DNA of 42,775 nt from Myxococcales bacterium (GTDB lineage Bacteria > Myxococcota_A > Polyangia > GCA-2747355). The notes under the pieces were generated by a model. The model searched no databases. It was not told the DNA's origin and saw only the letters and a list, made by a program, of their open reading frames with translations. Below are positions 11,305 to 42,011 of this stretch, piece by piece (position 1 is the first letter of the stretch; every line of letters starts with the position of its first letter). The position numbers and the translations under genes are program-made. The stretch covers positions 1 to 42,775 of the forward strand of contig JAGQIK010000166.1 in the NCBI GenBank assembly GCA_020431405.1, written 5' to 3'.

Positions 11305-11901
11305 CTAGCGCGCGCGCTCGATGGCACCGGCGTCCACCGTCACGGGGACGTCGGTGTCTTCCTTCCAGCCATCATCGACTTGCTTGCTGTCGCTGGGCTC
11401 GCTCTCGTCTCGGGGGCTTGGCGGCGGCGGCGGCGGCGGCGGCGCGGGCGCGGCCAGCGACTTCGAGCCGAGCAGCAGCACGCGCACCGAGTGCGTCTCT
11501 TCCTGGTCGGCGCGCAGCGACGCGATCTCCTCGCGCCGCTGAGCCAGCTCCTGCAGCAGCGACGCGATCTCGCGCTGCAGCGTCTTGACCTGGTTTTCGA
11601 GGGAGTGCTGCTTGGTGATGCCGTCCTCGATGATCGCCGCCACGTCGACGCGCATCGACTCGAGGGTGCGCTTGATGACCTGCACCACCAGCGCGATGTT
11701 GTCCGTTTCGGGCAGGTCGCGCATCAGCGCGATGGCGTCGTCGATGCCGTAGCTCGGCTTGGGTGGCTCGGGTGGCTTCGCCGGGGCCGTGGCGCGTTGC
11801 GGCGGCTTGGGCGCCGGCTCGGGCGCCGGCTCGGGGGTGGCGGCCGCCGGCTCGGGTGAGACCTCGTCGACGGTTGCACGTTTCTTGCGGAAGAAGCCCA
11901 T
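11305..11901 (-). CDS. Coiled-coil protein with YGIDDAI domain (paralogue B)
   Basis: 198 residues in four parts: a basic start (MGFFRKKR), a Pro/Ala/Glu linker at about 10-48, a globular segment starting SYGIDDAIALMRDLP near 50, and a heptad-rich coiled coil at about 95-135, then a Pro-rich tail. The middle is plainly paralogous to the upstream gene (SYGIDDAIELMRKMP). The two share TLES, V-x-V, DG-x-x-K and LQ-x-E-I/V positions and the A/S-D-x-x-E-T end of the coiled coil. No family name comes to mind. It starts two bases after the upstream stop, and the upstream gene's final GAGGAATAG supplies its ribosome binding site, so the pair is translationally coupled. No signal peptide or membrane segment is seen, so it is probably cytosolic and possibly hetero-oligomeric with its partner. 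Confidence 0.8.
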   Translation of the reverse strand: MGFFRKKRATVDEVSPEPAAATPEPAPEPAPKPPQRATAPAKPPEPPKPSYGIDDAIALMRDLPETDNIALVVQVIKRTLESMRVDVAAIIEDGITKQHSLENQVKTLQREIASLLQELAQRREEIASLRADQEETHSVRVLLLGSKSLAAPAPPPPPPPPSPRDESEPSDSKQVDDGWKEDTDVPVTVDAGAIERAR

Positions 11902-11903
11902 GA

Positions 11904-12356
11904 CTATTCCTCGTTGATCAGGCCGTCGATCGGCGAAACACGTGTGTCTGGAATGTCGTCGTGGTCTTCGTCTTTGGCGTCGCCGGCGGCGCCTTCGTTG
12001 CTCTGCTGGGCGAGCAACAGCCGCTCTTTGACCAGCGTCGTCTCGGCGATGTCAGCCTCGAGGTCGCGGATGCGATCGCGGCATCGCTGCACCTGTCCTT
12101 CGAGATCGCCGACTTCGCCTTGGAGATCCGAGATGCGCTTGGCGATGCGGTCGAGCTTGGCCTGGCCGTCGTCGAGCACCGAGCCGACGTTGACGCCGGC
12201 CGACTCGAGCGTGGTGCGCACCACGTTGACGACCATGTCGCTGTTCGAGCCGCCGCTCACCGGCATCTTGCGCATCAGCTCGATGGCGTCGTCGATGCCA
12301 TACGAGCGGTTGCCGGCGGAAGCGGAGGCCACGGGGCCGGTCAAGGTGTTGGCCAC
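11904..12356 (-). CDS. Coiled-coil protein with YGIDDAI domain (paralogue A)
   Basis: 150 residues starting at a GTG with a strong GGAGGAGGG eight bases upstream. Residues 18-70 form the shared domain (SYGIDDAIELMRKMP, VVNVVRTTLESAGVNVGSVLDDG). Residues about 70-115 are a coiled coil (LDRIAKRISDLQGEVGDLE and onward), and the tail is acidic (DAKDEDHDD). It is the first gene of a two-gene operon with its paralogue. The paralogue carries an extra basic Pro-rich N-terminus and a Pro-rich tail, so the two products are probably not interchangeable. I do not recognise the family. A structural or signalling adaptor is one possibility suggested only by the coiled coil. Confidence 0.8.
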   Translation of the reverse strand: MANTLTGPVASASAGNRSYGIDDAIELMRKMPVSGGSNSDMVVNVVRTTLESAGVNVGSVLDDGQAKLDRIAKRISDLQGEVGDLEGQVQRCRDRIRDLEADIAETTLVKERLLLAQQSNEGAAGDAKDEDHDDIPDTRVSPIDGLINEE

Positions 12357-12436
12357 AGGCGATCCCTCCTCCGTGCACCTTCAGGTACACGGCCGAGGAT
12401 ATCGAACCGGCGGTGGTCGCGTCGACGCTTATCGGA

Positions 12437-13849
12437 TCAAGGTGCGGCCGATGCGGTGGCGTCCAGACATAGACCTACCTGCGTCGCGGACGTGACGAGC
12501 GAGCCGTCGAGCGCGCGACACTGCGCGCCGAAGATGGCACAAGTCAGCGCCGTGTTGTTGTAAGGCCATAGGATGTGTTGGCCGTTGCACTGCACGGCGT
12601 CACCCCACTGGCACACGGGCGCGTTGGCCACCGGCACACCGTTGAGGCTGAGCTGGCTCCAGTCGCGACACTCGTAGTCGCCGTATTTGTCGCCGCCGGC
12701 GACGCTGCCGAGCCCGCGACAGCTGTTGGCTTGGCTGGGGTTGCACGTGGCGAGACAGCGACCGCCGGCGTAGGTTGCCACGCAGGTCGACGCGCCCGAG
12801 CACTTGAACTCGGGCAGGAACAGACAGCCGTCGATGACGCAGTAGCCGTTGCGTGAGTGCTCTTCGCAGAGGCCGAGCGTGCAGCGGCCGCCGTCGCAGC
12901 GCCCGCTGCAGCACTGCGAGTCATCGACGCACAGCGCGCCGAAGGGCTTGCGCAGCACGGCGTTGTCGACGGGCAGCTCGCAGTGGCCGTTGGCGGGGCA
13001 GTCCTGGTCGGCCTTGCAGGGCGAGCCGACTTGCTGCGTGCCCGAGCTCAGCCGCGGCAAGCACAGCCCGCTCGTCTTGTCGCAGCGGCCTGGCTTGACG
13101 CAGCGACCTTGCTTGCCGCCGACGACGAAGGGCAGACAGCTCGAGCCGACCTGACAGCCGTTGCTTCCACCGGCGCCGACGAGGCACTGCTGGCCCGTCT
13201 GCTCGGGGCAGTCGTTGTCGCTGAGGCAGGCAGGAACGCCGCAGAAGGCCTGATCGACGCGCGAGACGCTGAAGCGGTTGGTGCGTGGATCGCACGCCGT
13301 GCCTTTGGGGCACGGGTTGGCCACGTGAAGCGCCGGCTTGCACTTGCGCATGCAGACGTTGACGGTGCCGCCTTTGCGATCGCCGTTGCGCACGGTGGCG
13401 CAGGCCAGCGACGCGACATCGGGGCAGCTGTCTTCGTTGACCAGCGGCGTCGAGAGGTTGTCGGGCGTGCAGGCGCAGCCGCACACGCCGACGTTGCTGT
13501 TGGGATCGGTGAAGACACACGTGTTGCCGAAGCAGTGGCCGTCCACTTTGCACGGCAGGCCGGCCACCGCGAGGCAGCCCTTGGTCGGCGGCGGCGGCGG
13601 TGGCAGCGTGTCGGGCGCCGGCGGCTTCAGGTCGGGGAACGGCAAGAGGTCGGGCACGCCCCAGTCGGGTCGATCGGGCGGCCACGGCAGATCGGGCACT
13701 GGGCGATCGGGGATGTCGACGTGATCGGGCGCGGGCTCGCCGTCGGGTATGTCGGGCCCGGTGTCACCAGCGTGCAGCGGATTGCGCGTGGTGCAGGCCG
13801 TGGTGAAGAGCAGGGCGACGGCGATCAGGGCGATGGGTCTGCTTGCCAT
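12437..13849 (-). CDS. Cys-rich surface lipoprotein with Pro-rich stalk
   Basis: 470 residues. The signal peptide ends in a lipobox-like LLFTTAC (Cys19). Residues about 25-90 form a Pro/Asp stalk (DIPDRPVPDLPWPPDRPD). The rest holds well over thirty Cys in short EGF/Dickkopf-like modules, such as CLSDNDCPEQTGQQC, CKADQDCPANGHC and CVDDSQCCSGRCDGGRC. These match the 'C-x-x-D-x-D-C' pattern common in myxobacterial secreted proteins. Such modules are disulfide-stabilised; their role is unknown, with binding or adhesion the usual guess. The ATG lies seven bases after a TATCTC box with no ribosome binding site, so the mRNA is probably leaderless. The spacer before the downstream coiled-coil gene (12357-12436) shows nothing else. 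Confidence 0.85.
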   Translation of the reverse strand: MASRPIALIAVALLFTTACTTRNPLHAGDTGPDIPDGEPAPDHVDIPDRPVPDLPWPPDRPDWGVPDLLPFPDLKPPAPDTLPPPPPPTKGCLAVAGLPCKVDGHCFGNTCVFTDPNSNVGVCGCACTPDNLSTPLVNEDSCPDVASLACATVRNGDRKGGTVNVCMRKCKPALHVANPCPKGTACDPRTNRFSVSRVDQAFCGVPACLSDNDCPEQTGQQCLVGAGGSNGCQVGSSCLPFVVGGKQGRCVKPGRCDKTSGLCLPRLSSGTQQVGSPCKADQDCPANGHCELPVDNAVLRKPFGALCVDDSQCCSGRCDGGRCTLGLCEEHSRNGYCVIDGCLFLPEFKCSGASTCVATYAGGRCLATCNPSQANSCRGLGSVAGGDKYGDYECRDWSQLSLNGVPVANAPVCQWGDAVQCNGQHILWPYNNTALTCAIFGAQCRALDGSLVTSATQVGLCLDATASAAP

Positions 13850-13856
13850 GGGCGTC

Positions 13857-13862
13857 GAGATA
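13857..13862 (-). promoter_or_regulatory. Candidate -10 box TATCTC, leaderless promoter
   Basis: On the minus strand, TATCTC ends seven bases before the ATG at 13849, and no Shine-Dalgarno sequence lies between. This fits a transcript starting at the start codon. Confidence 0.4.
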
Positions 13863-13963
13863 GCAAGGGCAGCGCCAGACGTAAGTCGTCGTGATCACCG
13901 GCGGGCATGTGTCATTTTGTGCCGACGTGATCGGTGTGTGTGGCACATCTCGTGCCCTCGCGG

Positions 13964-15124
13964 CTACTTGAGGGCGCCCAGGCCGGCCGTGTTGGCGGGG
14001 TCTGCCCAGTAGAGCGTTCTGCCGGTGCCGGCCTCGCAGGTGAGATCAGCGGTAGAGCGCCAGCCCGGTTTGAAATACCAGATCGCTTGGGCGAAGGCGG
14101 CCGTGAGCTGCTGCAGGTTCTGCGCTTGGGCGACGATCTCGGCTTCGCTGCGGGCGGCGGCTTCGATGATCAGCTCGCCGAAGAGGCCGCTCAGTCGCTC
14201 GTGCTGGTAGCCCTGATACCAGGGGCTGTCACCGATGGTGATCTTCGGTTTGGGCGGCGGCGTGTTCGCGATGTCGCCGCCCGTGCCCGACGTCCACTCG
14301 AGCACGTCGATGGGCGCCAGCGAGGGCAGGTCGGAGTAGAACGTGTAGGTCTTGGAGCCGTTGCTGTTGCGCACGACGCGCAGCGCCTGCGTGCGCCAGA
14401 CGTCGTAGACGACGTCTTTGGAGGTCTGAAACCCAGCGCGGGTGTCGAAGTAGTCGCCGCCGGAGGGGGCCGCGATCTCCCAGCGGTGCGTCGTGCCGGT
14501 GTTGTTGGCGACCTTGGGATACGGGTGGCCGCCGACGTACTGCGCGCTCGGTGTGAAGCCGCCGTCGCCCTGCGCCCACCAGAGCGTGACGTAGTAGCCC
14601 GTCTGCGCGCGCTGCTTGACGCGCCACATGTACGTGACGCCGGCATTGTTGGGGCCCGCGAAGGGCAGGCCGTGCGTGTGCGGATCGTCGAACTGCAGCG
14701 CGACGAAGGGGGCCGTCTTGTCGGCGCCGCTGACGTTGCTGGGGAAGTCGAGCGCGAAGCGCGTCGTCGAGCCGCTGTCGACGGAGCTGTCCGCGGCGGG
14801 CGGCGTGGTGGTGTCGACGGAGCTGTCCGCGGCGGGCGGCGTGGTGGTGTCGGCGGAGCTGTCCGCGGTGGGCGGCGTGTTGCTGTCGACCGCGGCGTCG
14901 GCGCTCGGTGGCGTGCTGTTGTCGCGCGCCGCGTCGCCGGCCTTGCTGTCGCCGGCCGCGTCGGCAGCGTTGCTGTCGCCAGCCGTGTCGAGTGGCGCGC
15001 CGGAGTCAGCACGGCTCGCGGTGGCGTCGCCTTGCCCAGACGGGCCGTGAAGCTCGCCTGGGCTGCAGGCTGCGCAGCAAAGCAGCGCGAGCGGGATGGC
15101 GATAACGCGCGAAGGGATCCGCAC
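13964..15124 (-). CDS. Lipoprotein with repeat linker and beta-rich domain
   Basis: 386 residues starting at a GTG. The lipobox region is LALLCCAACSPGE. Residues about 25-125 are a low-complexity Asp/Ala/Ser/Thr/Pro linker containing near-perfect 12-residue repeats (TTTPPAADSSVD). From about 128 there is a globular domain rich in Trp, Tyr and beta strands (WRVKQRAQTGYYVTLWWAQGD, KTYTFYSDLPSLAPIDVLEW) that reads like a jelly-roll or concanavalin-like surface domain; I cannot assign a family. The last 60 residues are more helical. A TACACT box six bases upstream and no ribosome binding site suggest a leaderless mRNA. It follows the gene at 15155-15928 by 30 bases on the same strand. Confidence 0.8.
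   Translation of the reverse strand: MRIPSRVIAIPLALLCCAACSPGELHGPSGQGDATASRADSGAPLDTAGDSNAADAAGDSKAGDAARDNSTPPSADAAVDSNTPPTADSSADTTTPPAADSSVDTTTPPAADSSVDSGSTTRFALDFPSNVSGADKTAPFVALQFDDPHTHGLPFAGPNNAGVTYMWRVKQRAQTGYYVTLWWAQGDGGFTPSAQYVGGHPYPKVANNTGTTHRWEIAAPSGGDYFDTRAGFQTSKDVVYDVWRTQALRVVRNSNGSKTYTFYSDLPSLAPIDVLEWTSGTGGDIANTPPPKPKITIGDSPWYQGYQHERLSGLFGELIIEAAARSEAEIVAQAQNLQQLTAAFAQAIWYFKPGWRSTADLTCEAGTGRTLYWADPANTAGLGALK
14777..14884. repeat. 36-bp tandem repeat, three copies, in a lipoprotein linker
   Basis: Three consecutive 36-bp units begin at 14777, 14813 and 14849. The first two are almost identical, the third has a few changes, and a more degraded fourth runs to about 14920. Each encodes 12 linker residues. 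Near-identity at silent positions points to recent slippage or unequal exchange. There are no spacers, so it is not a CRISPR array. Confidence 0.85.
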
Positions 15125-15130
15125 GCAGCC

Positions 15131-15136
15131 AGTGTA
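15131..15136 (-). promoter_or_regulatory. Candidate -10 box TACACT, leaderless promoter
   Basis: On the minus strand, TACACT ends six bases before the GTG start at 15124. The gap GGCTGC has no Shine-Dalgarno match. The box lies in the 30-base gap between two lipoprotein genes, so the downstream gene has its own promoter despite the close spacing. Confidence 0.45.
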
Positions 15137-15154
15137 ACAAAGACCCGCGTCGGG

Positions 15155-15928
15155 CTAGTCGCAGATGCCTTCGAAGCCGAAGTAGGCGTTGGCCGTCTTC
15201 TCGGCCTCGACGCTGACCGTTTTGCTGGTCTCGCCGCTGAAGCACTGGTTGGAGAGCTCGACCACCACCTGGTAGCTGCCGACGGCCACATCGCTGAAGC
15301 TGAAGCTGCCGTTTTCGCCCGAGACGGTGCTCGCCACTTGCTCGCTGCCGCTCATCAGCTTGACCTTCTGCGCGGCGATGGGCTGCTCGGTGCTGTTTTC
15401 GAAGAGCGTGCCGCTGATCGACCCGGTGGGGCCTTGCGGCGCCTTCTTGGCTTTGACCACCAGCGCGTAGGTTCCGAAGGTGTCGATGGCCGTCTCGACG
15501 CGTCCGTCGCTGTCGACGATGGTGGAGCGATCGAGCGGCGACCAGCCGGTCTCGCCGTCGCCGGAGTAGAGGCGGTAGATGCGGTAGGTCTTGTCGGTGA
15601 GATCCTGCTCGGGGTCGATGCGGATCGTCGCGCCCTTGGCCAGCTGGGTGCCGGCCGGCTCGATGATCATCACGCGCACGGCGTCGTCGAGCTGCGGCAG
15701 ATCGGCGCTGATGTCTTTGAGCGTGAGCTTGACCTCGAGATCTTCGGCGAGGCTCTGGGCCGGGATCGCGACCTCGGACTTGTTGGTGCCGGTGAGCTTG
15801 ACCGAGCCGCCGCTGGCGGCGTTGATGATCTCGGAGCTGATGGCGGTGCCCGAGCCGCAGGCGCCGAAGGCGAAGGCGGTGGCGGTGGCGAGCACGAGAG
15901 CGGCGAGGCGGCAGCGTTTGCGAAGCAT
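15155..15928 (-). CDS. Lipoprotein with carboxypeptidase-regulatory-like (Ig-fold) domain
   Basis: 257 residues. The signal peptide ends FAFGACGSG. The first half (SGGSVKLTGTNKSEVAIPAQSLAEDLEVKLT and on) resembles a ZU5-like or 'stalk' beta domain built around a conserved Ala/Pro-x-x-x-Leu turn; this is tentative. The second half, from about residue 165 (GSISGTLFENSTEQPIAAQK), is a good match to a carboxypeptidase-regulatory-like domain: GxV/L strand, GxFxFxxVxxGxYxV turn (GSFSFSDVAVGSYQV), ending YFGFEGICD. Two Cys near the end may form a disulfide. The start is fixed by GGGAGGAC about six bases upstream. It is probably a surface structural or binding lipoprotein. Confidence 0.85.
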   Translation of the reverse strand: MLRKRCRLAALVLATATAFAFGACGSGTAISSEIINAASGGSVKLTGTNKSEVAIPAQSLAEDLEVKLTLKDISADLPQLDDAVRVMIIEPAGTQLAKGATIRIDPEQDLTDKTYRIYRLYSGDGETGWSPLDRSTIVDSDGRVETAIDTFGTYALVVKAKKAPQGPTGSISGTLFENSTEQPIAAQKVKLMSGSEQVASTVSGENGSFSFSDVAVGSYQVVVELSNQCFSGETSKTVSVEAEKTANAYFGFEGICD

Positions 15929-16067
15929 GGAAGAGTCCTCCCTGGAGGTAAGCGGGTTGTTCTGGCGCGCCGCCATTTGCACGCGCGGGGCCAGCTGCCA
16001 CGGGGCAGCGATTACGGGCAGATCGCGCCGTGCGGTGCGCGCGTGTGCCGACATGTCCGCCATGCTG

Positions 16068-40664: not shown

Positions 40665-42011
<1,347 letters not shown>

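Follow-up and report, generated by a model that had tools for sequence, protein, structure and literature searches.

Translationally linked genes for two paralogous coiled-coil proteins in Myxococcota: possible adaptors from an unnamed family with GHKL ATPase neighbors

Results

The window analyzed in this study, the whole stretch of DNA considered here, is contig C643 (42,775 bases) of an 11.2-Mb Myxococcota assembly. Two adjacent genes on its minus strand, ORF B and, downstream of it, ORF A, contain the motifs that an initial annotation of this DNA had quoted from them (Table 1). The junction of the two genes reads GAGGAATAGTCATG, which is composed of GAGGAA, TAG, TC, and ATG in that order and leaves a gap of 2 nt between the stop codon of B and the start codon of A; both this spacing and the location of the ribosome-binding site of A inside B had been described correctly in the annotation. 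A and B are translationally linked genes, and their GC3 values, 0.91 and 0.86 for the two ORFs, are in line with those of real genes. In the product of ORF A, the MGFFRKK N-terminus is followed by a Pro-rich linker, a helical module, a coiled coil, and a Pro-rich acidic tail (net −6), while ORF B has a short N-terminus that lacks the MGxF start typical of the family described below.

Table 1. Positions in the window of the gene pair, its translation signals, and the parts of its products
Feature	Coordinates	Strand	Description
ORF B	11904..12356	-	150 aa, GTG start; module, coiled coil, acidic tail (net −9)
ORF B helical module	12168..12302	-	residues 19-63; YGIDDAIELMRKMP...TLES...VLDD
ORF B coiled coil	12003..12167	-	residues 64-118; AF2 helix and heptad register
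ORF A	11305..11901	-	198 aa, ATG start; canonical MGFFRKK N-terminus
ORF A helical module	11623..11751	-	residues 51-93; AF2 of module and coil start
ORF A coiled coil	11464..11622	-	residues 94-146; profile match and heptad register
Shine-Dalgarno-like GAGGAA for ORF A	11907..11912	-	equals the last two codons of ORF B
Shine-Dalgarno-like GGAGGAGG	12365..12372	-	strong own site of ORF B, upstream of its GTG

Upstream of the pair, three genes on the same strand (12437-16063) encode predicted secreted proteins or lipoproteins, the third of which is the only one with a Pfam match, to a carboxypeptidase-regulatory-like domain, and a glyoxalase-family gene lies downstream in convergent orientation. 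None of these neighbors accounts for the pair, and no GHKL, PspA, AAA, or ABC gene stands beside it. Elsewhere in the window (40665-42011, minus strand), one gene joins an FHA domain to a sigma-54 activator that has a Fis-type helix-turn-helix.

A and B share 38% identity over 109 aa (BLASTP, E=4e-20), which bears out the proposal that they are paralogs with a common module and coiled coil. In comparisons with shuffled sequences, the score of the module by itself is 115 versus a mean of 22 (z about 22), and z is about 5.6 for the coil by itself. A is 58% identical to the canonical protein of another genome (G012) versus 38% to B, a difference that rules against a recent duplication. Because trees leave the placement of A versus B unsettled as well, with a sister relation not rejected by the AU test (p=0.31), the pair is likely to be either old or fast evolving. 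The best explanation of the sequences is that A and B belong to one protein family and diverged from each other long ago. In the first tree, B was sister to a PP2C-fused paralog (support 97/86), but this grouping was discarded, as it was flagged as a meeting of two long branches and drew no support from the pairwise scores.

The initial annotation knew no named family for the pair, and the databases searched agree with it: neither A nor B matched a Pfam or NCBIfam model at its cut-off, and the PDB sequence search gave coiled-coil-type matches only, including those to MakA and a related enterotoxin component (E about 2e-4), which were taken to reflect coiled-coil composition. Searching with B gave matches in 14 of 59 genomes, its own included, and none in the two family-level relatives, both of which are incomplete. 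A profile of 17 rows (A2), whose seed alignment includes both A and B, had matches at E≤1e-4 in 48 genomes out of 318 from the class, about 32 of them at E<1e-15, with a few further matches elsewhere in the phylum, and in total, profile searches detect family members in about 35 genomes of Myxococcota at E<1e-15. The matches of A and B themselves to A2 (E=1.2e-36 and 3.1e-37) are those of seed members, and support for the family that is independent of this seed comes from BLASTP of B against other genomes. A tight-alignment search found 11 relatives where a contig scan with B alone gave none. Named relatives are Kofleriaceae, Nannocystineae, and Myxococcales MAGs, and the outliers that have names comprise Pseudobacteriovorax and four genomes of gammaproteobacterial or proteobacterial origin. 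Neither the phage search with B nor the plasmid search with a canonical member gave a match.

The signature of the family, Y-G-I-x-x-A-I-x-L-M-R-x-L-P ... TLES ... I-I-x-D-A followed by a coiled coil, fits both A and B. Canonical members begin with MG[LIF]F-x-K/R, after which come a linker of low complexity (Pro/Ala or acidic), the module, the coil, and a variable tail; an MGxF-type start occurs in 32 of the 42 testable close-family members, and as A has it and B does not, their sequences mark A as a canonical and B as a non-canonical member. A short form of 103-119 aa without the MGxF tail was observed at five loci (L036, L039, L040, L135, and L119), directly followed in each case by a gene for a probable lipoprotein of about 196 aa, and at the three of these that were examined (L036, L039, and L040) it adjoins yajC-secD-secF and recJ. 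At the other extreme, a member of 435 aa (L121:4028-5335, plus strand) has a long C-terminal extension without a Pfam match.

Family members are nearly always encoded by one gene per genome, and of the roughly 42 loci of the close family that were examined, only that in the window has the tandem pair. Genomes with multiple copies (three in G004 and two each in G044, G592, and G596) have them on separate contigs. Paralogs standing apart and uncoupled in most relatives had been named in the initial annotation as evidence against its proposal, and this is largely what the relatives show, with members that are singles or on separate contigs.

About a third of the members adjoin a gene for an RsbW/RsbT-like ATPase. 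At 14 loci from six family-level groups, a HATPase_c_2 gene lies 4-232 nt downstream of the canonical gene on the same strand, and its product matches PF13581 with E-values down to 2.6e-6. By eye, the linked ATPases have intact boxes (DELMMNA, DGGGS, and GGAGLGL), a diverged receiver-like segment at the N-terminus, and a transmembrane stretch at the C-terminus; a PEGA match is weak in at least one of them and strong in longer paralogs. A tail motif, [FY]DSPVExVxL, occurs in all 12 linked members that could be tested (two of the 14 are cut by contig ends and were left out of the count) versus 0 of 30 unlinked ones, about 30 members having no HATPase neighbor (Fisher 9e-11). Since the motif had already been seen when the regular expression used for it, [FY]D..[VI]E.[VI].L, was drawn up, and since the tree shows motif and linkage to have been gained or lost independently only once or twice, we regard the motif as a strong subfamily marker rather than as independent functional proof and dropped the association as independent evidence. 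The window pair has neither the tail motif nor a linked GHKL gene and is therefore connected with these ATPases through its family only. Its own genome encodes several homologs of the ATPase in trans, the nearest of which are 32-37% identical (37% for that on contig C15 of G000). The GHKL homolog on C15 (L139:915-2578) has coordinates that overlap those of a small protein, STAS-like by eye and without a Pfam match.

A Pfam search found no PP2C phosphatase domain in A or B. In one genome, G044, a paralog (L029:4200-5408, plus strand, contig C222) consists of an N-terminal PP2C phosphatase and a C-terminal module; the fusion was seen once, on one contig. The same genome also has a canonical member and a GHKL gene, on another contig than the fusion.

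Weak matches with E-values from 1e-5 to 1e-8 form a second, distant group (A5). The A5 profile aligns with the module by hhalign (probability 96%, E=4.6e-9, 59 columns, 14% identity); with the module alone, E is still 1.1e-7, and E exceeds 0.1 in the reversed and the column-shuffled controls. In ten loci, the A5 gene precedes a PspA_IM30 gene by at most 90 nt, and the operon also encodes an OmpA/NMT1 protein, a permease, an ABC ATPase, and an AAA ATPase; this PspA/AAA/ABC operon type has been described for PspA/Snf7 (PMC11237479). The distant relatives encoded immediately before PspA (L104-L118) share a conserved KKGxGxxLLGLFVV start. No A5-type protein was found in the window genome, though PspA genes are present there, and A and B have no PF04012 (PspA_IM30) match.

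The AF2 model of ORF B, made with 13 rows, is composed of two short helices (residues 21-30 and 39-52) and one of 68 residues (57-124); its mean pLDDT is 81, with values of about 91-98 for most residues of module and coil (mostly 94-98 in the long helix). The model of the module and coil start of A has the same helix order (pLDDT 89). A structure search of the PDB yielded no convincing structural relative. The KaiA C-terminus and the RsbU N-terminus have a common fold (PMC11372060), and RsbT acts on RsbU through the coiled-coil linker of the latter (PMC12143880), and KaiA and RsbU were examined for these reasons. With the full ORF B model, Foldseek returned four KaiA chains among its matches (residues 19-79, E 3-9.5, Z about 3), but the similarity was not reproduced with the model of the module alone, which recovered neither KaiA nor RsbU. 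With query sequences confirmed against PDB chains, hhalign did not match the family to RsbU or KaiA, although RsbU versus KaiA likewise fails by the same test. RsbU_N (PF08673) was not among the Pfam matches of A and B up to E=10, and its profile, which matches a B. subtilis control, had no match in 141 genomes (G000 and 140 others).

The initial annotation had assigned A a basic N-terminus and tail and B an acidic tail. The acidic tail of B stands (Table 1), whereas the tail of A is acidic as well and its N-terminus carries merely +2, so the two proteins do not have opposite charges; both coils have −1. A simple count of charges at the e/g positions of the coiled coils gives −4 for A:A, 0 for B:B, and +2 for A:B, by which nothing favors A:B over A:A.

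Discussion

How the family works can be approached through the neighbors of its other members. The best-supported possibility, which we hold tentatively and rate somewhat below an even chance, is that A and B are cytoplasmic dimeric coiled-coil adaptors in a partner-switching-like circuit of the RsbU/RsbT kind. Each protein has a helical module of roughly 45 residues and a coiled coil of about 50, flanked by disordered tails; the N-terminal tail is of the MGxF-K/R type in canonical members including A, a start that B has lost or never had. The module and coil might dimerize and dock signaling enzymes, while the tails might bring in partners. The adjacent RsbW/RsbT-like GHKL ATPase probably has the canonical member as its partner or target, and the analog for such a layout would be RsbU/RsbT partner switching, in which the coiled coil transmits the binding of the GHKL protein; a phosphorylation switch might be part of the circuit. 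Because the pair is co-translated and lacks a GHKL neighbor, A and B would work together, as homo- or heterodimers, with a kinase encoded elsewhere.

Such an adaptor would resemble RsbU/RsbT in layout without necessarily belonging to that system. Both systems appear to combine a helical dimerizer and a coiled coil with an adjacent GHKL gene; on a Lysinibacillus plasmid, too, an rsbU-like gene adjoins a gene annotated as an anti-sigma regulatory factor, and one paralog of the present family is fused to PP2C. In contrast to RsbU (PF08673 RsbU_N plus PP2C) and the GHKL ATPase RsbT, however, the family has no detectable RsbU_N and usually no phosphatase domain; its one fusion carries PP2C at the N-terminus, the reverse of RsbU; its GHKL proteins have the diverged receiver-like N-terminus and the C-terminal membrane stretch; and the window pair has no linked GHKL gene. 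That the family belongs outright to the helical-domain superfamily of KaiA and RsbU_N, as dimerizers regulated in an RsbT-like manner, seems very unlikely. The GHKL neighbors and the PP2C fusion would be consistent with such a membership, and so would the KaiA matches in view of the fold shared by KaiA and RsbU, but these matches are all weak and disappear with the module alone, sequence comparisons provide no support, and the predicted topology runs directly on into the coil.

The chief rival to the adaptor is a membrane-associated helper of PspA/ESCRT-III-like remodeling, which would assist PspA or its AAA ATPase and is proposed to bind the inner membrane via the basic, amphipathic-looking N-terminus (MGLFDKK / KKGFGKTVLGWFVV). 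The coiled-coil proteins encoded before PspA carry a homologous module in the same order of basic N-terminus, Pro-rich linker, module, and coiled coil, and the frequency of the MGxF-type start in the close family accords with such a role. We nonetheless consider it unlikely, because the relationship is distant, no PspA-family gene is found among the conserved neighbors of close-family loci, the window genome combines PspA genes with the lack of an A5-type protein, and the A2 profile has no significant match to PspA (hhalign E=0.02). The obligate A:B heterodimer with complementary ends put forward in the initial annotation concerns the pair itself, and we judge it rather unlikely. An A:B heterodimer is possible since the homologous coils share a register, and the overlapping translation signals make near-equal synthesis likely, to which the sister relation tolerated by the AU test may be added; the computed charges, however, remove the basis of the proposal, the e/g count does not favor A:B, single members suffice elsewhere where paralogs stand apart, and the A/B pair is known from one assembly only.

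A broader, decidedly improbable idea is that the module is a new dimerization and docking domain common to GHKL/PP2C partner-switching and PspA/AAA membrane-remodeling circuits, with the pair as a co-translated heterodimer one subunit of which has lost the partner-recruiting tail; in that case, the two would be envelope and stress circuits of Myxococcota. Independently of these readings, the present study defines an unnamed Myxococcota family with outliers in Gammaproteobacteria and Pseudobacteriovorax, and it offers candidate partners in the GHKL gene of 14 loci, in the short tail motif that accompanies this gene, in the PP2C fusion, and in the relative from the PspA operon. If A, B, and their relatives do act as partner-switching adaptors, they would represent a new input or scaffold for partner-switching stress signaling outside Bacillota.
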